NCBI GenBank assembly: GCA_946480015.1
Contig: CAMLIL010000015.1
Coordinates: forward strand, 1-64,000
DNA: 64,000 bases
Direction: 5' to 3'
From: an uncultured Oxalobacteraceae bacterium
Lineage (GTDB): Bacteria > Pseudomonadota > Gammaproteobacteria > Burkholderiales > Burkholderiaceae
Part shown: in pieces, positions 53,258 to 63,280 of the stretch
How the letters are laid out: every line of letters starts with the position of its first letter
Position numbering within the stretch: position 1 is the first letter of the stretch
The notes under the pieces: generated by a model
Told to the model about the DNA's origin: nothing
Database searches by the model: none
Seen by the model: only the letters and a program-made list of their open reading frames with translations
Made by a program: the position numbers and the translations under genes

Positions 53258-55234
53258 GTGAGTAAGTTTTATGACAAAGTTAAACGCGGCGGCGTGGTTG
53301 GTCCCCGCAAGCGGGGCTTCACTTTAGAAGATTGGTGGAAAGCGTATGATGAATTAGCGTCCGAGGATAAGCGCGATACGCTCTTGTACATATCAGGAAA
53401 GCATATTCACACAAAGCTATCGGCTATACGCAATACGCTTGCCCAATCTTCGTTGTCTAGTCTATCTAAAACAACTCGCACTAAGGCACTCATTTCAGCA
53501 GCCAATCATCAGCTTGAAAGCATGGAGCTACAGATAAGGCGACGGACTGAGGAGGATGCAGGCAGCGGCACTGCAACATTGGATATTAGAACTTTAGCGA
53601 GCACCCAACTTACACTAGCTAATGGCAAAAGCTACAACGTAGAGGCCGTGCTCGGCGGAATGCTAGATGGTGTGGTGATTCCAATAAGAGCAGCGCTTGC
53701 GACAGGGCGCAGCGACGTAGACGACAGTTTTGATGCCGTCAATTGGGGTCACGTCTCGCATGAGATTAACCTTGGTATGCTCTACGACCAAACTGAGAAT
53801 TTGTGGGAAGATTGTATCTGGAACACCTACATAATAGGAGGTGCACGCGAAAACATTCTGGCGATGCCCCTTGATCTGGACGCAAAACTCGGTACGCACG
53901 CTGCGGCCGCCCGAAAACTTGCGTTGGGGATTGAGTCGTTCTCTTATGCCAGACAAGCTATTCAGCTACTAGGCATTCGCGCACTCCCGACAAGAATCAA
54001 GGAAGTGCTTGCGGTAGTGAACGAAGGCGGCCAACAGCAGATTCAACTAGGGCGCAACGAACTCGCCCCCCATAGCCAAACTATGCTGTTTGCGTTACGA
54101 ACAATGGCATGTCCTCCATATTACGACTCTTTGATAGATCAAAAACAGTCAGGCCTCGGAGGAGCTAGCCTTTCGCAGTTGTTTGACGTATGGATGCTGG
54201 TTTCTCAAGCAGCAACCCGTTTATGGGAGGAAACTTCATCAGCTTATTTGCCAGAACTGCCGCCCCTGACAGATGAAGTATGTAACATGCAGGATTACAT
54301 TCCTTTTTTCGATATCGATGTACTCATCAAGGCAGCGCATGAGGCTACAGGAGTTCCGGTCACGCAAGTAAAGGCTGTTATTGACTTTCTGACTTTTCAG
54401 GGGGAAAGGAATCAAGAATTCTTCACACAACCTTTAGTGTTTACAGGGGAGAAGTCAAAGTTGTACCCCATCTTCGGCGCGATAGCTATGGCGCCAAATT
54501 TGCGATATGTGCTTGAATGCTGGATGGCTCAGCTAAAGGTAAAGCTCGATGAACGAGGGTTAGTGTTCGAAGCCCACATTCGTTCTGAAATCGCCGAAGC
54601 GATCAAAGGTTCGCCAATGTTGTCGAAGCTAGCAAAATTCATATCGGAGGATTACACATTTAGATGTAAGGATGGGGCATTTGGACAAATCGATGCAATA
54701 TTTTGCATTGGCTCACACGTCTTTGTCCTTGAAGCGAAATGCATTCTAGAGCCAACCGACTCAACATCCATAGGGACACATCGTCTTGCCATTGAACATG
54801 CCGCCGAACAAGCGAGAACTCGCGTAAAATTAATTGACCAGCATCGCGAAGAATTTCGAGCTGACGTAAAGCAATTTGGCTGGAGCCTTCCGTCTCATTT
54901 CCACATTCATCCGCTTATCGCTGTGAGTACGATTGCTCATGTAGGCGTTCCTTTGGATGGAGTTCCGGTCGTAGACGAGTACGTTTTGCGTAAATTCTTT
55001 GCAGGAGGTTATGAGGACGTCGGCCTAGACACAAGTGATTTTTCTGTCGCTGAACGCATTTTCAGGCCGTTTTATGCCGATGCAACAGAAGCCGAAGCAA
55101 GTGCAGCTGATTATTTCAAGCAGCCACCACAGTTACTGCAGTATTCGGACGCTCTACGGCTTCGAGACGTCCCGATATATGCGGCGGCTGAGGATGATTG
55201 GAGCGGTATGTTAGTCGACTATGAACAAAGTTAG
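53258..55234 (+). CDS. Large protein with C-terminal PD-(D/E)XK nuclease-like domain
   Basis: A 658-aa protein, starting at GTG after AGGAAGG. The N-terminal about 450 residues show no domain I recognise. The C-terminal part carries a PD-(D/E)XK core: Asp479 in GQIDAIF, then a beta-strand and Glu492-Ala-Lys494 in VFVLEAKC, followed by a helix with Gln (HAAEQARTRVKLI), as in NERD and restriction-like nucleases. No signal peptide or membrane helix is present, so it should act in the cytoplasm. Lower GC and different codon use from priA indicate transfer. It stands alone on the plus strand at the edge of an island with a reverse transcriptase and an IS element. A single-gene defence nuclease is plausible but not shown. 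Confidence 0.75.
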   Translation: MSKFYDKVKRGGVVGPRKRGFTLEDWWKAYDELASEDKRDTLLYISGKHIHTKLSAIRNTLAQSSLSSLSKTTRTKALISAANHQLESMELQIRRRTEEDAGSGTATLDIRTLASTQLTLANGKSYNVEAVLGGMLDGVVIPIRAALATGRSDVDDSFDAVNWGHVSHEINLGMLYDQTENLWEDCIWNTYIIGGARENILAMPLDLDAKLGTHAAAARKLALGIESFSYARQAIQLLGIRALPTRIKEVLAVVNEGGQQQIQLGRNELAPHSQTMLFALRTMACPPYYDSLIDQKQSGLGGASLSQLFDVWMLVSQAATRLWEETSSAYLPELPPLTDEVCNMQDYIPFFDIDVLIKAAHEATGVPVTQVKAVIDFLTFQGERNQEFFTQPLVFTGEKSKLYPIFGAIAMAPNLRYVLECWMAQLKVKLDERGLVFEAHIRSEIAEAIKGSPMLSKLAKFISEDYTFRCKDGAFGQIDAIFCIGSHVFVLEAKCILEPTDSTSIGTHRLAIEHAAEQARTRVKLIDQHREEFRADVKQFGWSLPSHFHIHPLIAVSTIAHVGVPLDGVPVVDEYVLRKFFAGGYEDVGLDTSDFSVAERIFRPFYADATEAEASAADYFKQPPQLLQYSDALRLRDVPIYAAAEDDWSGMLVDYEQS

Positions 55235-55597
55235 GCGAATCCGCAATTAGGGAACGAGGTCGCCGCATAAAGCCGCCGCTAAATTGACTACCAATCGCAC
55301 TACCTTTCGAAAACGTCTTACATCCGCCCTTACATAGGACATAAAAACAACAAAGCCCGGTCCATTGGACCTGGCTAAGTTATTGATTTTATTGGTAGGC
55401 CCTCTCGGAGTCGAACCGCGCACCAAAGGATTATGAGTCCGTTAAACAAAAGGCTGGAAACCAAAGCAAGTCTTTGAATTTAAAACAAATTCCTTGCCAT
55501 CCGCCGCTAAAAATAGCGTACAGGCAGGACCAGAATTGGACCAGATAGCTGGCGGCAGACCGGACGGTGAACGGACACCGGCCTACAGCCAGCCACT
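55235..55597. other. Intergenic region with tRNA-derived sequence
   Basis: This 363-bp gap separates the plus-strand nuclease-like gene from the minus-strand 120-aa gene. Apart from the tRNA fragment at 55393-55446 it has only a short GC-rich inverted repeat near 55354-55372 (GCCCGGTCC...GGACCTGGC). No gene seen. Confidence 0.5.
55393..55446 (-). pseudogene. 3' half of a CAU-anticodon tRNA (attachment-site-like remnant)
   Basis: On the minus strand this reads as a tRNA from the anticodon stem to the CCA end. It has anticodon loop CTCATAA (CAT at 55433-55435), variable loop TGGTG, T-loop with GGTTCGACTCC, acceptor 3' strand AGGGCCT, discriminator A and CCA. The D-arm and 5' acceptor strand are absent, and the stems have mismatches, so it is not a functional tRNA. 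Integrative elements commonly carry the 3' part of a tRNA gene as their attachment site. A related anticodon-arm sequence occurs at 61974-61993. Confidence 0.65.
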
Positions 55598-55960
55598 TTA
55601 GTCTTCGGTATTTGTGGACGGGTCGCTCAGATCCAAGATCAAGCCGTGGCTCTCCGCACCCCCAACAAGGCGATCGTGCTCATACTGATCAGGATTCAGA
55701 CTTACTGAAAAGCCGCGCTTCCTCATTTCGGTTAACGACCGCGCGTTAGCTTCGTCGCCAAAATCGCCCGGCTTGCGCACATATTCTGAGACCACATGCT
55801 CAGCATGGTCAACGATTTTCTGATCCTTGACTGACAAACTCTGATACAAATATGGCGAATTAACAGCGTCCCCTTCGAAGTCTCCCTCCGGGATCGTAAT
55901 ATTTTTGAAAGCTTGAAGAGCCTCTGTGACATCATTAATTGTAGGCTTAGGTAAGAACAT
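55598..55960 (-). CDS. Hypothetical 120-aa protein
   Basis: Unrecognised acidic soluble protein starting MFLPKPTINDVTEALQAF, with AAAGGAA at a good distance before the ATG. No membrane segment or known motif. It lies 72 bp after the 348-aa gene on the same strand, so both are probably co-transcribed. Small acidic proteins in islands can be immunity or antitoxin proteins, but nothing here proves that. Confidence 0.6.
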   Translation of the reverse strand: MFLPKPTINDVTEALQAFKNITIPEGDFEGDAVNSPYLYQSLSVKDQKIVDHAEHVVSEYVRKPGDFGDEANARSLTEMRKRGFSVSLNPDQYEHDRLVGGAESHGLILDLSDPSTNTED

Positions 55961-56032
55961 GGAAATTCCTTTCGGTTAAACATTGCGCATGATTGGTTAG
56001 GGCTTGCGGCTCGGTGCAGTTACAGGACGTCA

Positions 56033-57079
56033 TTAAAATGCATCTTGGGAAAATTTCTTGGTAACTGGATCAAACCCCCGCTCAACAGCAATCTCAAAAT
56101 AGTGCGCCGCCATCGCCATGTCAGGCGGGATTACGCCTGAGAACTCATCCTGAGCCATACCGGGTTTAAGAGGCAAATAATAGTGAGAGGTAATCAACGC
56201 AGCTGGGCCGCTTCCGTACTTGGCGGCGTCGTGGTAGGATTTGAAGGCGAACAATCGCTCCCCATGCAAATCACTCTCTGCGTACAGTTGCCCCTGCAAA
56301 GTGTAAAAATCAACGCGGCTTTCATCCTCCAAGAAAACATCGTCGCCCGCATCCAAGGCTTTGGCGACAAATTTACAAAGACTTTTAGCGCGCACCAAGT
56401 TTTGTTCAGCCCCCCATCCGTTGCGCAAGGCTCTTGCCAAATTGACCTTGACATAGTGAAGAGGGGTCTCACTCAGCATCTCCAGCAAAGCTACGCCAAG
56501 TTTGGCACGAGGTCCGGTCTTTTGATTTACCAAGCGAATAGCCAGAGGGCCGATGTACAGTGGCAGCGCCTTGTTGGTAGGCCCGATGCTAGCTTTAATT
56601 GCGCAGCGAAACAATTCCAAGTCATCTTCGGTAGGCAACTCGCCCACGAGCTCATACATAAGAAGCAAGAAAAATGCTTGAAGAGGGACCCCCGCATTCC
56701 GCAGCTCATTGATCTTGTCAACGTCCAAGGCAGGGCTTTGTGGTCTTGCAGCGGTGGGCTGCCAATTCGCAATGAGCTCATCTACACGTTCTAACTGGAC
56801 ATCGTGCTTCAGGCTGTACTCGGTCAAGCGCCTGGCCTCGCGCTCGCGGCGATCCCTCAATTCAGACGCTGTACATTCTTCATCCCAGGACGACTCTGGA
56901 AAATCAGAAAGACCGACGTTAGCAGACCAAGTACGGTAGTCCACTTCAGCTAAAACATAGCTGGTCGCATCTTTGAAATTAAAAGTGTCAGGGACTGAAG
57001 TGCCCTGTGCTGACAAACATTCGCGGAGACGCTTCGATATACGCGCGAATAGAGTTTTTGACTTAATGTTGAATTTCAT
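56033..57079 (-). CDS. Hypothetical 348-aa protein, possible Sel1/TPR-like repeats
   Basis: Begins MKFNIKSKTLFARISKRL. The C-terminal half contains short helical repeats with Sel1-like spacing (AFKSYHDAAKYGSGPAALITS; AAHYFEIAVERGFDP; LVRAKSLCKFVAKAL), suggesting a protein-interaction scaffold. The N-terminal half is charged (RDRREREARRLTEYSL) and unrecognised. The island location and lower GC suggest acquisition with its neighbours. Confidence 0.6.
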   Translation of the reverse strand: MKFNIKSKTLFARISKRLRECLSAQGTSVPDTFNFKDATSYVLAEVDYRTWSANVGLSDFPESSWDEECTASELRDRREREARRLTEYSLKHDVQLERVDELIANWQPTAARPQSPALDVDKINELRNAGVPLQAFFLLLMYELVGELPTEDDLELFRCAIKASIGPTNKALPLYIGPLAIRLVNQKTGPRAKLGVALLEMLSETPLHYVKVNLARALRNGWGAEQNLVRAKSLCKFVAKALDAGDDVFLEDESRVDFYTLQGQLYAESDLHGERLFAFKSYHDAAKYGSGPAALITSHYYLPLKPGMAQDEFSGVIPPDMAMAAHYFEIAVERGFDPVTKKFSQDAF

Positions 57080-57328
57080 ATCGGCTCCCGGCGGGCAAGC
57101 ATAGGCAGCCCGCCAAAAAAGTTAAGGCGGGGAATGCACGCTTTAGCCGCGAGGCCGAGGGTGGTGATTGAATTACCCTACAAAAATCGTACCACGGGCG
57201 CCCCTCCGGCGTCAATTACAACCTTAGCGAGGTGACAGTACACGGGGCAAAATGTGCTTCCGAATCAGTCAGACATCTTGACATCGGCAGCAGCCTGCAT
57301 GCCGACCGATGATTATGCAATGGGTCGG

Positions 57329-58534
57329 CTAGGACTTACGGGGCAAGCCTAAAAAAGCTCTTGCATCCGCACCGATTTCCGAGAGCTTGATCCCCAAGCC
57401 CGTTCCATAGACCGTACGTAACGCCTTGTGTTCCGCCTTTCGCAACTCAAGCTGCACGTCGTCAATGTTCGCGCACATGTCATAAGCGCCAAGGTAGCCG
57501 TCCCGCTTGGCTGCAATGGTCTGCCCTAGTGTGCGAAGCGTGATGTTCCTACTGAGCAGCTGCTTGATGTTGCTAAAGCCAAGCAGCTCCTGCTTCAGAC
57601 GCAGCAGCTGGGCATCTGCCAACCTCAACTCATAGCCAGCCGCCGCCGGCGCAAGCTCTAGCCCAAGGAACTCAGCTGGATGATGAGGAGAATAAATCAC
57701 CGATTTGGACCCTGGGCCGAGAGCCGGAACGTCTAAGCCGATTTTGTTGAACTCACTTTTGCAAAAAGCTGCGACCTGATTGCATTCGCTTTCGTCCCTG
57801 CAAAGGAAGATCAAATCGTCGGCATACCGAACAGCACTAGCGCCTGATTGCTCAACTTTTTGGTCGAAATCGACCAAGAGCAGATTCGAGAAGAACGGAG
57901 ACAGAGGCATCCCTTGCCGTACCCCCAGCCCACGCTTAATTCCGAGCTTGGCGATGTCGGCAGCGACTGCTCGACTGGGCGAATCAACTTCACATTCCAA
58001 CGCGGTGAACAGCAAGACATGCAACGACCGCTCCTTAATCAGCTTCTTGATGGCATTTTGCAGATCAGCACGTGGGATTGAATCGAAGAATGCGGTAATG
58101 TCGGTTTTGTATACCCAGGATCTCTCGCGGCGCGATGCGCAAGCGATATCTGCCGCCATGTGAACACTGCGCCCTTTGATAAACCCGAAGCTGATGTTAT
58201 TCGCCAGCTTCACGGCATACCTATCTCCGAGGTACGCGGCCAACGCACCTTGAACGATCCGATCCCGTACGGTCGGAACGCAAATCAAGCGCTTTTTGCC
58301 ACTCGGTTTAGGGACCAAGTACGGCTTCAAAGGTGAAAATGAAAACTTGCGCTCACGGATGTCGCGAGCCAGACGAACCAGATGGCCCTTTGCATCAAGA
58401 TGGAAGTCATTGATCGACTGGCCATCGACACCAGTGGTGTTGCGAGACAGGAGTTTTGTTTTCTTGTAGAGATGCTTCCACACAGCACTGAGCGTCGCGT
58501 GGGAAAGTACTTGGTCGTATGCAGTCGAGCCCAT
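57329..58534 (-). CDS. Reverse transcriptase (non-intron, unknown-group or group-II-like)
   Basis: A 401-aa RNA-directed DNA polymerase. The RT0 motif TTGVDGQSINDF, fingers (VPKPSGKKRLICVPTVRDRIVQ), motif A KTDITAFFDSIP (Asp145), motif 4 RQGMPLSPFFSN and catalytic RYADDLIF (Asp239, Asp240) are all present. No maturase X domain or HNH endonuclease follows, so this is not a typical group II intron protein. The motif is QGxxxSP, not the SQ form of diversity-generating retroelements, and retron hallmarks are not seen. ATG 58534 is chosen because TGA of the upstream ORF is one base before it (TGAAATG), implying coupled translation. Defence-associated RT families have this compact shape; the exact group needs a profile search. 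Confidence 0.85.
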   Translation of the reverse strand: MGSTAYDQVLSHATLSAVWKHLYKKTKLLSRNTTGVDGQSINDFHLDAKGHLVRLARDIRERKFSFSPLKPYLVPKPSGKKRLICVPTVRDRIVQGALAAYLGDRYAVKLANNISFGFIKGRSVHMAADIACASRRERSWVYKTDITAFFDSIPRADLQNAIKKLIKERSLHVLLFTALECEVDSPSRAVAADIAKLGIKRGLGVRQGMPLSPFFSNLLLVDFDQKVEQSGASAVRYADDLIFLCRDESECNQVAAFCKSEFNKIGLDVPALGPGSKSVIYSPHHPAEFLGLELAPAAAGYELRLADAQLLRLKQELLGFSNIKQLLSRNITLRTLGQTIAAKRDGYLGAYDMCANIDDVQLELRKAEHKALRTVYGTGLGIKLSEIGADARAFLGLPRKS

Positions 58535-58535
58535 T

Positions 58536-59120
58536 TCAGGTGTGCCGCTGGCGTTGACCCCCCCCGAGCCAGCGGAAAAAGCCACCGTCGGCAGAGTCTT
58601 GGCTGAGAGCCTCTTGCGAGTCGTCCAAGCCGCTGACACCGCCGCTAACGCTCACGCGATTGCTCGCCTTTGCGCCATTTTGCCGCATGGTAACGTGCAG
58701 CGCAACCTGCATAGATGCATGAGGCACACCGTCCACCCAACCACCAGCCACCGAAATGCGAATCATACTCGTTTGCATTCTCAACACCCCCAGTTCACTA
58801 CAACAATTGAACAAAAAGCACGCGGTAGTCGCGATTAAAAGCCATCGCTTCCACCAAGACGGGGCAGAATGCAAAACGTTCTCACGCTTCGACGTTTGCG
58901 GCGCGCCCGCGCCTTTGCTCCTTGACTGCCCCGCACGTTTCTTATTCGCCTTCCCAACTAAATCGGGAGTAGAAGACGAAACACCAGGACAGCCGTCGGC
59001 AGAGTCTTGGCTGAGAGCCTCTTGCGAGTCGTCCAAGCCGCTGACACCGCCGCTAACGCTCACGCGATTGCTCGCCTTTGCGCCATTAGGCCGCATGGTA
59101 ACGTGCAGCGCAACCTGCAT
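58536..59120 (-). CDS. Unknown ORF upstream of the RT, carrying two in-frame 140-bp repeats
   Basis: A 194-codon frame that ends one base before the RT start. Its first and last parts are nearly identical, because the 140-bp direct repeats lie 408 bp apart (a multiple of three). Each repeat encodes MQVALHVTMRxNGAKAS followed by NRVSVSGGVSGLDDSQEA. Between them lie a basic stretch (GKANKKRAGQSRSKG) and a hydrophobic segment (WWKRWLLIATTACFLFNCC), possibly a membrane anchor. An internal ATG at 58712 would give a 58-aa product. It may be a genuine protein or only a transcribed RNA template region; it has no family I recognise. Confidence 0.45.
   Translation of the reverse strand: MQVALHVTMRPNGAKASNRVSVSGGVSGLDDSQEALSQDSADGCPGVSSSTPDLVGKANKKRAGQSRSKGAGAPQTSKRENVLHSAPSWWKRWLLIATTACFLFNCCSELGVLRMQTSMIRISVAGGWVDGVPHASMQVALHVTMRQNGAKASNRVSVSGGVSGLDDSQEALSQDSADGGFFRWLGGGQRQRHT
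58585..58724 (-). repeat. 140-bp direct repeat, RT-proximal copy
   Basis: Identical to the copy at 58993-59132 except at 58680-58681. On the RT-coding strand this copy has AA (codon CAA, Gln) where the other has CT (codon CCT, Pro). It lies immediately upstream of the RT start. Confidence 0.95.
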
Positions 59121-59132
59121 AGATGCATGAGG
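58993..59132 (-). repeat. 140-bp direct repeat, RT-distal copy
   Basis: Matches 138 of 140 bases of the RT-proximal copy, in the same orientation, with a 268-bp unique spacer between them. Its ATG at 59120 opens the upstream ORF. Confidence 0.95.
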
Positions 59133-59228
59133 GCGCTACCACTCGGCAATTTTACCTTAAGTCAACGGTGACATGCGCGTTTCAACTGGCGCCGGTATTT
59201 CGTGTGGATAGATAGTCGCAGCATTGCT

Positions 59229-59490
59229 TCAAGAGCGACCGAGCAAAAAAGCCTGATCCTCAGGCCTAAGTGCAGCCAGCCACGACGTAATCACTAGAGA
59301 TTGATCATCGGGCTGGTTTGGCTCCTCAGCCAGCAAATCGCCCACCGTGGTTGCCAAAACAGCGGCCATCCGCTCAAGCGTAACCAACGATGGTATGTGC
59401 TTGGCACGCTCGAAGCGCGATACCGTTTCGGTGTCTAGGCCTAGTCGCTCTGCAACTTGGGCCTGCGTAAGTCCAACCTCGTGGCGACGG
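59229..59490 (-). pseudogene. XRE-family regulator, 5' end removed by IS21-type insertion
   Basis: The minus-strand frame ending at TGA 59229-59231 encodes a helix-turn-helix: RHEVGLTQAQVAERLGLDTE then TVSRFERAKHIPSLVTLERM, and a short C-terminal tail ending FLLGRS. The frame runs into the IS21-like left end around 59475-59503 with no start codon of its own, so the first 15 or so residues are lost. It is on the RT strand and just upstream of the repeats, so it may once have controlled the RT cassette. Confidence 0.7.
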
Positions 59491-59503
59491 GTCGATCTGA
59501 CCG

Positions 59504-60307
59504 TTAGAACGGTTCGTCGGGAGGCGCTCCTTTCCCGGCCTTGCGCTTTTGCTCACGGGCCTTGATGCGTCCTTTCGCGGCCATGCTGCTGTGCTGGAAG
59601 CGGTACGATTCGTTGCCCGTTTCGACGATATGGCAGTGGTGGGTCAGTCGGTCCAACAGTGCCGTGGTCATCTTGGCATCCCCAAATACGCTCGACCATT
59701 CGGCGAAGCTCAGATTTGTCGTGATGACGACGCTGGTGTGCTCGTAGAGCTTTGAGAGCAGGTGGAACAGCAAGGCGCCACCGGCCTGGCTAAACGGCAA
59801 ATATCCGAGTTCGTCGAGGATCACCAGATCCGTGCGCATCAGCGACAGGGCGATCCGTCCCGCCTTGCCTTCGCGCTTCTCCCGCTCCAGCAGGTTGACC
59901 AAGTCGACCGTCGAGTAAAACCGGACCCGCTTACCCTTCGACGCGATGCCCGACACCGCGATGGCGGTGGCGAGGTGGGTCTTGCCCGTACCGGGTCCGC
60001 CAATCAGTACGGCGTTCTGCGCCGTATCGGTAAATGTCAGCGTGGCCAGTTGCCGAACCAGTGCCTGATCGACTTTCGATGAATCGAAGTCGAAGCCGGC
60101 CAGATCTCGGTGGACGGGGAACTTAGCCGCCGTCATTTGGTGGCTGACCGAACGCATTGCACGATCCGTATGCTCGGCGCGCAGCAGATGCTCGATGAGC
60201 CACTTGGAAGACGCCACCGAGTCCTCGCCTTGCGCCAGCAAGTCCGTCCAGGCTCCGACCATGCCATGCAGGCGCAAGTCCTTGAGTTCGTTCGCGACGT
60301 CACGCAT
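59504..60307 (-). CDS. istB: IS21 helper ATPase IstB
   Basis: A 267-aa AAA+ ATPase that assists the IstA transposase. Walker [14 protein letters not shown] and Walker [13 protein letters not shown] are intact. ATG 60307 ([16 protein letters not shown]) overlaps the istA stop by 8 bp. The gene looks complete, unlike its partner. Confidence 0.93.
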
Positions 60308-61834
60308 GGTCGACCTCCACCGCACCGTTCGCCACGTCGTCTTCCATGGCACGCAGGCTGTCGTAGCGGCTGGTATTGGCCACTGGCGCCTCCTTCAGTT
60401 GCAGGCTCGTTTCCACGCTCGCCGGCGGCGGTGTGGCATTGAGCCGCGCCAGCACGTTCTCGACATGCTCGGCGCTGAGCACGCCGGACTCGATCACCAG
60501 TTCCACCGCCACCAGCACCGCTGGCAAGCCCGCCGTGGGCACAGCGGCCAATACCTGGGCCATCAGACGGTCGCCGCCCGCGTGCCGCATCAGGCCCTGC
60601 TTGAGCTGCATCAGCGGCGCCGGCAGGTCGGCGAGCGGCGCGCCGTTGCGCAGCGCTCCTGGCTTGCGCTCGACCAGCGGAATATAGTGCTGCCAGTCGT
60701 AGCGCACGCAGCCACGCTCGGCAAGCCGCTCATGGCTGGCGACGGTCGCATCGCCGGCGACGATGCTCACCCGCGCCGGATACAGGCGCACGCTGACCAT
60801 CTGCCCTGCCAGTTCGCAGGGCACCGAATAGCGATTGCGCTGCACGGTGACCAGGCAGGTGCTCGACACGCGCGCCGGTTTCTCCACATAGCCGTCGAAC
60901 GGGGTGGGCATGGGCATCATCTGCGCCTGCTCCTGTTCGAGCATGTCGGCCACGCTCATGGCCGGATATTCCGGGTGGCGCAGTTCGCCCATAGCGCGCG
61001 GCAGCGCTCGCCCAGCCAGGCATTGAGCTCGGCGAATGAGCTGAACTTGCTGCTCTGCGCATCGAGCCAGATGCGGCGTCGGCTGTCCTGCACGTTCTTC
61101 TCGACCACGCCTTTCTCCCAACCCGAGGCGCGGTTGCAGAAGTCGGGATCGAACAGGTAATGCGAACACATCGAGGCAAAGCGCGCATTGACGATGCGCC
61201 CCTTGCCCTTGTTGACCTTGTCGACTGCCGTTTTCATGTTGTCGTAGATGCCGCGCCGGCTGACGCCGCCCAGAGCCGCGAAGGAGCGAGTGTGCGCGTC
61301 GAACAGCATCTCATGGCCTTGACTCGGGTAGGCCGTCAGCCAGAACGCCCGGCTGGCGCATAGCTTGAGGTGCGACACCTGGATGCGCCGGTAGATGCCG
61401 CCGATGACCAGACCTTCCTCGCTCCAGTCGAACTGGAATGCCTCACCCAGCTCGAAGGCCAGGGGCACGAAGGCGTGCGGCGCCTTGCCTTCGCTGCCGC
61501 GCCAGTCTCAGATGAAATCGGTGACGCGGCTGTAGCTGCCTGGATAGCCGCTGGCCGTGATTTGGGCGAACAAGGCCTTGGCGCTGCGCCGGTTCTGTTT
61601 GATGCGGTGCGAGTCGGCCTTGAGCGCTTGTTCCAGCGCGGCGTGGTAGGGACTCAGCCTAGTCGGCTTCTGCTCTCGCTGATAGCGCGGCGACGACACG
61701 TCCTCTCCGGGAACCCTGACCCATTTGCGCAGCGTATTGCGGGACAGTCCCGTGCGCTTCGAGATTTCGCGCAGCGATAGCTTGTCGCGCAAATACATCC
61801 GTCGAACCTTGCCTAACATTTTCATGGTGATCAC
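60300..61834 (-). pseudogene. istA: IS21 transposase IstA, disrupted by a nonsense codon and a frameshift
   Basis: The N-terminal HTH (LSLREISKRTGLSRNTLRKW) starts at 61834 (GTG; ATG 61825 is possible). The frame is stopped by TGA at 61508-61510, between SRVTDFI and DWRGSEGKAP, most simply a CGA-to-TGA change. It continues in the same frame through the DDE core (FQFDWSEEG, ASGWEKGVVEKNVQ) until about 60988-60990. There the reading shifts from RCRALW to GELRHPEYPAM in another frame, consistent with loss of one G in a short run. The C-terminal part then runs to TGA at 60300. Transposition in cis is unlikely. Confidence 0.85.
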
Positions 61835-62363: not shown

Positions 62364-62780
62364 ATGAGCAGACCCCTCATCGTATTGGGTGATAAAACCA
62401 GTCATGGCGGCACGGTCATCAGCGCGGATCTCACCTTTGACATCAACGGCAAGTGCGTCGCGCGTGTCGGCGACATGACAGTGTGCCCAAAGTGCAAGGG
62501 GATTTTCGCCATCACGTCCGGACCAGACGACCTGGTGGACGGCTTCGGCAACGGATACGCGCGGCATATGGACTCGACCGCTTGCGGCGCAAAGCTGATT
62601 TCCGGTCAAATAACTACGACCTGGTCGGACATATCGTCAATGGGCGACCCTGCTGCCGATGATAAGGCCGAGGCGCTGGCTGCGGCGTCCCAGATCGCGG
62701 CCGCCACACCATCAGGCGTCTGCCTGGACTGCCTGCTGAAGGCAGCGGCCATCGGCAGCGCGACTGTGGTGCGCGAGTGA
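62364..62780 (+). CDS. PAAR-domain protein (T6SS spike tip)
   Basis: A 138-aa protein with an N-terminal PAAR fold (IVLGDKTSHGGTVIS, VARVGDMTVCPKCKG, STACGAKLISGQ). PAAR proteins cap the VgrG spike of type VI secretion and carry effectors. The C-terminal about 40 residues (DCLLKAAAIGSATVV) extend past the domain. TCAGGAGTATCCT precedes the ATG. The stop overlaps the next gene's GTG. Confidence 0.88.
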   Translation: MSRPLIVLGDKTSHGGTVISADLTFDINGKCVARVGDMTVCPKCKGIFAITSGPDDLVDGFGNGYARHMDSTACGAKLISGQITTTWSDISSMGDPAADDKAEALAAASQIAAATPSGVCLDCLLKAAAIGSATVVRE

Positions 62781-63280
62781 AGGCGCCGAACGATATGGCG
62801 GAGCGCCTCGCCCAGCTACACCAGACCATGTCCGCGTTGAGACTCTATGCACTTGTCGACGGCGCGCAGTACCGCGCGCGGGTCGGCGAACCACTGGCGG
62901 CTGAGGAAGGCTTCTATTCATTGTTCGCCGGCACAGCGGACGCGCCCTTGGCCCATGCCGGGCCTTGGCTGGTCGATGCGGCGCAAGCAAGCGACGCATT
63001 GATTGATGCCTTGGCCGAGCTGGAACAGGTTTCCCCCGCCGTCACATGGCTGATCGCCCCGCAAGATCTCGAAGGCCTCGCGCAGCTACTTCAATTGCAG
63101 CTCGACGTCGAATTGCCGGACGGGCGCACCGCGTTGCTACGCTTCTGGGATCCACGTGTGTTGGTCACCTTGGCCGAGGTGCTCGACTCGGTCCAGCGTG
63201 ACGCGTTCTTCGCGCACATTCACGAATGGCATCTGCTGCATAAAGGCCAGCGAGCATGGATAGGGAGGCGGCATGCTTAA
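62777..63280 (+). CDS. DUF4123 protein (T6SS effector adaptor)
   Basis: A 167-aa DUF4123-family protein. Such proteins (Tap/TEC) load specific effectors onto VgrG or PAAR. Family-typical segments are LYALVDGAQY, GPWLVDA, VTWLIAPQDLEGLAQLLQLQ and LLRFWDPRVLVTL. The GTG start overlaps the PAAR stop by 4 bp, and the end overlaps the next gene by 8 bp. Confidence 0.87.
   Translation: MKAPNDMAERLAQLHQTMSALRLYALVDGAQYRARVGEPLAAEEGFYSLFAGTADAPLAHAGPWLVDAAQASDALIDALAELEQVSPAVTWLIAPQDLEGLAQLLQLQLDVELPDGRTALLRFWDPRVLVTLAEVLDSVQRDAFFAHIHEWHLLHKGQRAWIGRRHA

Follow-up and report, generated by a model that had tools for sequence, protein, structure and literature searches.

Two near-identical direct repeats lie upstream of a stand-alone reverse transcriptase (RT) gene in the window, the whole 64,000-nt stretch of DNA that was analyzed, and the same kind of pair is found in 10 of the 11 distinct RT loci compared (window included), across RT identities of 36–86%. 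The twin-repeat layout is a feature of the RT family and no local accident. Judged from the sequences, the locus probably represents a small RT-plus-RNA system, most likely for phage defense, that would be built as RNA copy 1, membrane-peptide ORF, RNA copy 2, and RT.

Organization of the locus

57329..58534, minus strand: RT, 401 aa, group II intron-like fold, QGMPLSP and YADD motifs intact
58536..59120, minus strand: ORF1, 194 aa, one frame through R1, spacer, and R2
58545..58575, minus strand: possible hairpin CCGCUGGC/GCCAGCGG immediately upstream of the RT start, read by eye
58585..58724, minus strand: RT-proximal repeat copy R2, from direct repeat comparison; covariance-model match by construction
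58679..58681, minus strand: R2 slot, read as AAA on the coding strand and immediately preceded by GCGGC
58785..58841, minus strand: spacer-encoded hydrophobic segment LLIATTACFLFNCCSELGV of ORF1, with a shuffle p of 0.10 in the window alone
58993..59132, minus strand: RT-distal repeat copy R1, from direct repeat comparison; covariance-model match by construction
59087..59089, minus strand: R1 slot, read as CTA on the coding strand and immediately preceded by GCGGC
59149..59154, minus strand: TAAAAT, candidate −10 element upstream of R1, aligned by eye

The two copies (140 nt each, 408 apart) are identical at 138/140 positions (99%), and their mismatches are confined to two adjacent bases. On the coding strand the order is R1, spacer, R2, and RT, and a single base separates the ORF1 stop from the RT start (TGA-A-ATG). 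An earlier sequence-only reading had described an ORF with in-frame 140-bp repeats, placed one base before a compact RT with YADD and QGxxxSP motifs. This description stands, with the RT start refined to the ATG at 58534, near which most relatives among the matches listed begin. A longer RT frame from the GTG at 58639 (436 aa) would overlap R2.

The possible hairpin before the RT is missing from the minimum-energy fold predicted for this part of the window; several relatives have hairpins with a different sequence at the matching pre-RT place, as read by eye from sequence and folds. TANNAT occupies the alignment columns of the candidate −10 element in four relatives (L001, L006, L007, and L008). 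The promoter scan gave no sigma-70 type match at 59149..59154, and promoter and terminator scans were no better than shuffles.

Reverse transcriptase

The RT is stand-alone and intact, is neither a UG17/DRT10 RT nor that of a diversity-generating retroelement (DGR), and has no intron RNA around it among Rfam matches at E ≤ 1 in window positions 55000–61500. RVT_1 is its sole domain match in Pfam. Classification with RT-family profiles, as the earlier reading had proposed, rules out UG17/DRT10 membership, as the window RT reaches 134 bits in a partial match (other RTs among the matches listed, 124–152 bits) against 511 bits for L018, a full-length UG17 match. The scores for the Drt2 RT family (55.8 bits, cutoff 390) and the RT/maturase model TIGR04416 (160.9 bits, cutoff 300) are likewise below threshold. 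Among the VIA-align matches listed, the fold is nearest to group II intron and G2L4 RTs; DRT10 is absent from the 50 matches listed, which is no evidence of a difference. DGR RTs carry the SQ form of the motif, unlike the QGMPLSP seen here.

A decayed or cryptic group II intron would suit the fold. Both this and a recent local duplication without function are very improbable: Rfam matches at E ≤ 1 in 55000–61500 include no intron RNA, purifying selection on the RT is strong (dN/dS about 0.03 between window and L001), and the repeat pair is kept across genera, a conservation that contradicts both. With this locus, the candidate defense RTs gain a group II intron-like lineage that lies outside the PADLOC UG families.

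Conservation of the repeat pair

Within the family, the pair is present in L001 (Janthinobacterium sp. GW456P, the sole genome-scan match; spacing 408, RT identity 86%), L006 (405, 85%), L007 (408, 57%), L008 (402, 52%), the two Acinetobacter plasmids L009 and L010 (399, 45–46%), and the viral contigs L012, L013, and L014 (453, 381, and 452; 36–40%). Further records (L002–L005, L015–L017, L036, and L038–L040) are repeats of loci already counted and were excluded from the 11. Copies within a locus are 97–99% identical, and the sequence between distant loci varies completely; the repeats of L012/L014 and of L013 are quite unlike those of the window, yet the copies agree at 98–99% per locus. Because the pair recurs at the matching place in nine other loci, three of them with unlike repeat sequence, the layout is beyond chance. 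The one locus without such a pair within 1.5 kb upstream of the RT is an Acetobacter plasmid (L011, RT identity 35%). Searching homologous RTs for upstream repeats, a check named in the sequence-only reading, returned a conserved pair instead of the strain-specific duplication with repeat-free relatives that this reading had set against its own proposal.

Downstream of the RT relative on the Acetobacter plasmid, an array with a 10-nt period lies at L011:5970–6450. L014 (IMGVR_UViG_2843940340_000001) is a relative of L012 with a partial RT match, in which the twin repeats are intact and the ORF1 frame is broken, perhaps by decay or sequencing error.

In a contrast set of 20 RT loci chosen by UG17 score, repeats of at least 59 nt at a spacing above 300 occurred only in L036, which is the L001 place, and in L030, which belongs to a second RT family treated below. 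Genome sampling for close RTs gave 4/392, 1/399, 1/398, 1/62, 1/40, and 1/15 matches; after the first sample the single match was the centre itself or G001, and only three genomes were added overall. This scattered occurrence, with three further genomes in 392 carrying a close RT, also suits a defense role. Sampling for the L030 RT gave 1/210, the match being L030 itself. Plasmid DNA searched with the window locus yielded no match. RTs are present in 42 phage records, all below 60% identity and none covering 80% of the query. Viral scans with the RTs of the window, L009, L030, and L042 found no relatives, those with the L012 and L013 RTs returned already known places only, and a layout-pattern scan of viral contigs found none.

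Concerted evolution and the slot

The copies evolve in concert within each locus except at one place, the slot, which consists of one to three differing bases directly after GGC (offsets 0–3). The slot differs between the copies in 10/10 loci in an alignment anchored on this GGC, on which positional equivalence depends for L012–L014. Two bases differ in the window, L006, and L013, three in L001 and L009/L010, and one each in L007, L008, L012, and L014. Other differences between copies sit near the ends, at offsets −43, −38, and 82 in L008, before −34 and at 88 in L009/L010, and at 87, 88, and 89 in L012, L013, and L014, respectively. Outside the slot, changes between loci are common to both copies: 18/18 positions between window and L007, 1/1 between window and L006, and 14 positions shared by the R1 and R2 lists of 15 and 16 between window and L008.

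Searches with the ORF1 sequence and alignment collected 34 proteins, including that of the window. The duplication is present in 31, at a distance of 129–137 aa, and the remaining three are shorter (117–150 aa). The slot is covered by 22 proteins (P0128 counted by eye), and the copies differ there in 20, with no difference at the amino-acid level in P0124 and P0137. One mismatch elsewhere in the repeat was seen in 6/31 (P0131, P0133, P0134, P0143, P0144, and P0150).

The slot is not hypervariable, since the two Acinetobacter plasmids share one version of it, and so do the window and L006, although the RT genes of the latter two stand at an estimated dS of 2.6, near saturation. This stability bears on a DGR with template and variable repeats, one of two interpretations offered in the sequence-only reading. 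A pair of nearly identical repeats next to an RT, each about 140 nt long, fits a DGR in length and position, and the slot of R1 differs only where R2 has an adenine in the window, L001, L006, L007, and L008. The adenine-only rule fails, however, in L009, L010, L012, L013, and L014, many other adenines are unchanged, and the RT carries another motif. A DGR is therefore highly unlikely; QGxxxSP had already been taken to argue against a canonical one in the sequence-only reading. Homogenized copies that are kept unequal at one slot across bacterial groups represent a natural experiment pointing at functional nucleotides.

Constraint on the repeats and predicted RNA structure

Between window and L001, dS is 2.45 in the RT versus 0.10 in R1, 0 in R2, and 0.22 in the spacer. 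Between window and L007, the repeats show pS of 0.14–0.17 and pN of 0.17, and the RT pS of 0.87 and pN of 0.32. The repeats are constrained as nucleic acid, because their synonymous sites are far better kept than those of the RT in the five closest loci (window, L001, L006, L007, and L008). Repeat pN is about equal to pS for most differing pairs of these loci, and the repeat amino acids are not specially protected among them. Constraint exceeding that of the RT is limited to the five closest loci and does not extend to Acinetobacter: against L009, repeat nucleotide identity (0.45–0.48) is no better than that of the RT (0.48–0.53), with repeat pS of 0.64–0.70 and a lower pN of 0.47–0.51, and RT pN of 0.37–0.41.

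The repeats likely have an RNA function, and their predicted structure is provisional in its details. In a consensus fold of 12 copies, 93.7% of the cells that should pair do so, whereas shuffles reach 88.5% and slid controls no more than 46.6%; 5/29 pairs are changed on both sides, in rows that are related and with a structure taken from the same alignment. A covariance model from which L013 had been left out recovered the two copies of that locus where its repeats lie (E 8e-6 and 0.0055). It missed L012 and L014 and gave no match in the DRT10 locus L018 or in L030; a match in L011 (E 0.0014) lies away from the expected place and is probably spurious. Single copies fold ordinarily, with z of −0.52, −0.86, +1.26 (L008), −0.97, −1.18, and −1.49 in six loci, somewhat below five RT-stretch controls (+2.29, +0.42, −0.68, −0.44, and −0.07). 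A flank-pairing test was supportive in 1/12 copies, and the slot is clearly unpaired in some predicted folds only. Short A-B-A′ patterns were seen by eye, without a null, in some copies only, and no pattern is consistent across loci.

ORF1 and its spacer peptide

Searches of Pfam, NCBIfam, PADLOC, and PHROGs gave no match for the ORF1 of the window within the limits chosen; below the Pfam threshold, there are weak matches only. A SLATT domain was not found at Pfam E ≤ 5, a search in which HMMER filters drop most weak matches, in the ORF1 of the window (P0121), L009, L012, L013, P0131, and P0140. The spacer frame is open in 8/8 loci tested, each with a hydrophobic segment. The chance of an open spacer in dinucleotide shuffles and the shuffle p of the best hydrophobic segment are, respectively, 0.0345 and 0.0995 in the window, 0.0305 and 0.0565 in L001, 0.04 and 0.108 in L006, 0.028 and 0.03 in L007, 0.064 and 0.026 in L008, 0.0085 and 0.036 in L009, 0.002 and 0.16 in L012, and 0.309 and 0.006 in L013. 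The ORF1 stop abuts or overlaps the RT start in 6/6 loci computed, and inspection of L012 and L013 shows the same. Of the six start codons at R1, three are ATG, two are CTG, and one is TTG. Spacer dN is below dS among window, L001, and L006. We infer that a small membrane peptide may be made from ORF1 and that translation of the RT may be coupled to that of ORF1, which suggests an RNA that would double as coding sequence for a membrane peptide.

ORF1 could also be an ordinary membrane protein with a duplicated domain, selected as such, whose halves are kept alike by gene conversion. The open spacers with their hydrophobic segments (shuffle p 0.006–0.16), the stops at the RT start, the selection on the spacer, and a repeat pN below pS in the comparison with Acinetobacter all agree with this explanation. 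It is nevertheless unlikely, given that repeat pN nearly equals pS for most differing pairs of the five closest loci, that the synonymous sites of the repeats are under much stronger constraint there than those of the RT, and that the start codon varies. Moreover, gene conversion acts inside each locus and would not alone make different loci diverge more slowly.

A similar layout in a second RT family

In L030, an unclassified RT locus, the RT is preceded by two copies of a 59+25-nt element at spacings of 321/308, and copy 1 carries an extra 13 nt. L042, a P. aeruginosa plasmid, harbors a perfect 132-nt repeat before its RT at a spacing of 376, with a TIR-domain protein nearby. The L042 RT is 38.6% identical to that of L030 and 27% to that of the window over 273 residues. 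Both loci contain a short ORF (MQKRA..., L030:952–1356 and L042:2419–2926) that starts in the spacer, enters copy 2, and has a hydrophobic stretch; this stretch ends in LAC, which we take to be lipobox-like. No frame runs through both copies in either locus, and the L042 copies lack an internal slot. The two loci speak for a recurrent layout of RNA, membrane peptide, RNA, and RT; the slot rule is not repeated in them.

These loci also weaken an explanation by long-range template jumping, in which R2, spacer, and R1 would be copied and the nascent cDNA would re-anneal from R1 to the identical R2, giving 381–453-nt concatemers that form a stop-less gene like neo of DRT2. Precedents are the A-B-A′ logic of DRT10 and the stop-less concatemers of DRT2, as given in the available parts of the respective reports (PMC12632851; PMC11100668), and the unit is a multiple of three and stop-free in one frame in 9/10 loci, the frame being broken in L014. 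However, multiples of three are already required for ORF1 to read through the two copies in frame, the spacing is 452 in L014, and the second family has spacings of 376 and 321/308 with no frame through both copies. Template jumping leaves the slot and the roughly 140 nt kept identical unexplained, and it is improbable.

Relation to described systems and proposed mechanism

In the available parts of its report, DRT10 (UG17) comprises an RT, a SLATT membrane protein, and an ncRNA (137 nt in Eco3DRT10) and produces telomerase-like tandem repeats; the template comes after a stable stem-loop and is read over and over, and the authors propose that the cDNA modulates the SLATT protein (PMC12632851). 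The family studied here shares with DRT10 the order of RNA, membrane protein, and RT, a similar RNA length, a defense setting, and a slot that follows a predicted stem in several copies, as the DRT10 template follows its stem-loop. It differs in its UG17 score, in having two RNA copies instead of one, in the absence of a SLATT match in Pfam, and in a membrane ORF that overlaps the RNA copies. DRT2 combines an RT with an ncRNA and makes the stop-less neo gene via concatemers with a unit of 120 nt, according to the parts of PMC11100668 that were available. DRT2 and the present family both have an RNA upstream of the RT and an open frame in the repeat unit, whereas the present loci have another RT, twin genomic copies, and a unit of 381–453 nt, and concatemers are a hypothesis only. 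From G2L4 and GsI-IIC RTs the window RT is set apart by the missing intron RNA, its length of 401 aa, and its tie to twin repeats and defense genes (G2L groups, PMC4244168). The RNA-using defense RTs DRT2, DRT3, DRT9, and DRT10 are described with one RNA in the available parts of PMC11100668, PMC13213688, and PMC12632851 (see also PMC13174585 for DRT3, PMC12483538 for DRT9, and the overview of DRTs including both in PMC13213688). No description of twin RNAs with an RT was recognized in the open-access literature searched, which does not establish absence from print.

Copies that are kept equal probably share a binding partner, the RT being the simplest candidate; as the slot is kept unequal, the two copies probably act differently there. 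Each repeat would thus form a structured RNA to which the RT binds. By comparison with the repeatedly read DRT10 template behind its stem-loop, the slot is placed in or at the edge of the copied stretch, and the two RNAs would give two cDNA versions. In a variant, only one copy would serve as template, with the other as its non-equivalent partner. The cDNA may control the small membrane peptide, as proposed for cDNA and SLATT in DRT10, and RT translation would be coupled to translation through copy 2. Alternatively, one copy could be the template and the other a decoy or a regulator of RT translation, or concatemers could be synthesized as in DRT2. The most specific form of the RT-plus-RNA reading is a twin-template immune system, in which one RT uses two near-identical RNAs held the same except at the slot to make two defined cDNAs, the copies also encode the ends of a membrane effector, and the twin layout occurs in at least two RT families. 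In this full form it is a tentative proposal, possible rather than probable.

Genomic setting

Ten neighboring genes in the loci of relatives were picked by look, a selection that is not exhaustive, and scored against PADLOC, where nine matched and one (L040:10699–12000) matched nothing. The matches are PDC-S06 in L001, TIR-NLR in L038 (the L006 place), PDC-S21 and PtuA/PtuB-like in L039 (the L007 place), Dsr2 and a TnsB-like transposase in L040 (the L008 place), AbiEi-like in L009, and a methyltransferase in L013; all but the transposase and the methyltransferase are defense matches. The chosen neighbors in five loci (L001, L038, L039, L040, and L009) thereby match known or candidate defense genes; two neighbors in the window that were tested against PADLOC gave no match. 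With these genes and with repeats kept alongside the RT family, the templating RNA of a defense RT, the other interpretation of the sequence-only reading, fits best, as does its suggestion of an undescribed RT arrangement.

At L040:1713–6724, TniQ/TnsD- and TnsB-like genes adjoin the RT locus and Dsr2, and a Tn7-like element may carry the system there as cargo. Directly upstream of the locus in the window, minus-strand ORFs at 59504–61834 resemble by eye an IS21-type istB/istA pair, and ORFs at 62364–63280 resemble by eye a PAAR protein and a DUF4123-like adaptor of type VI secretion.
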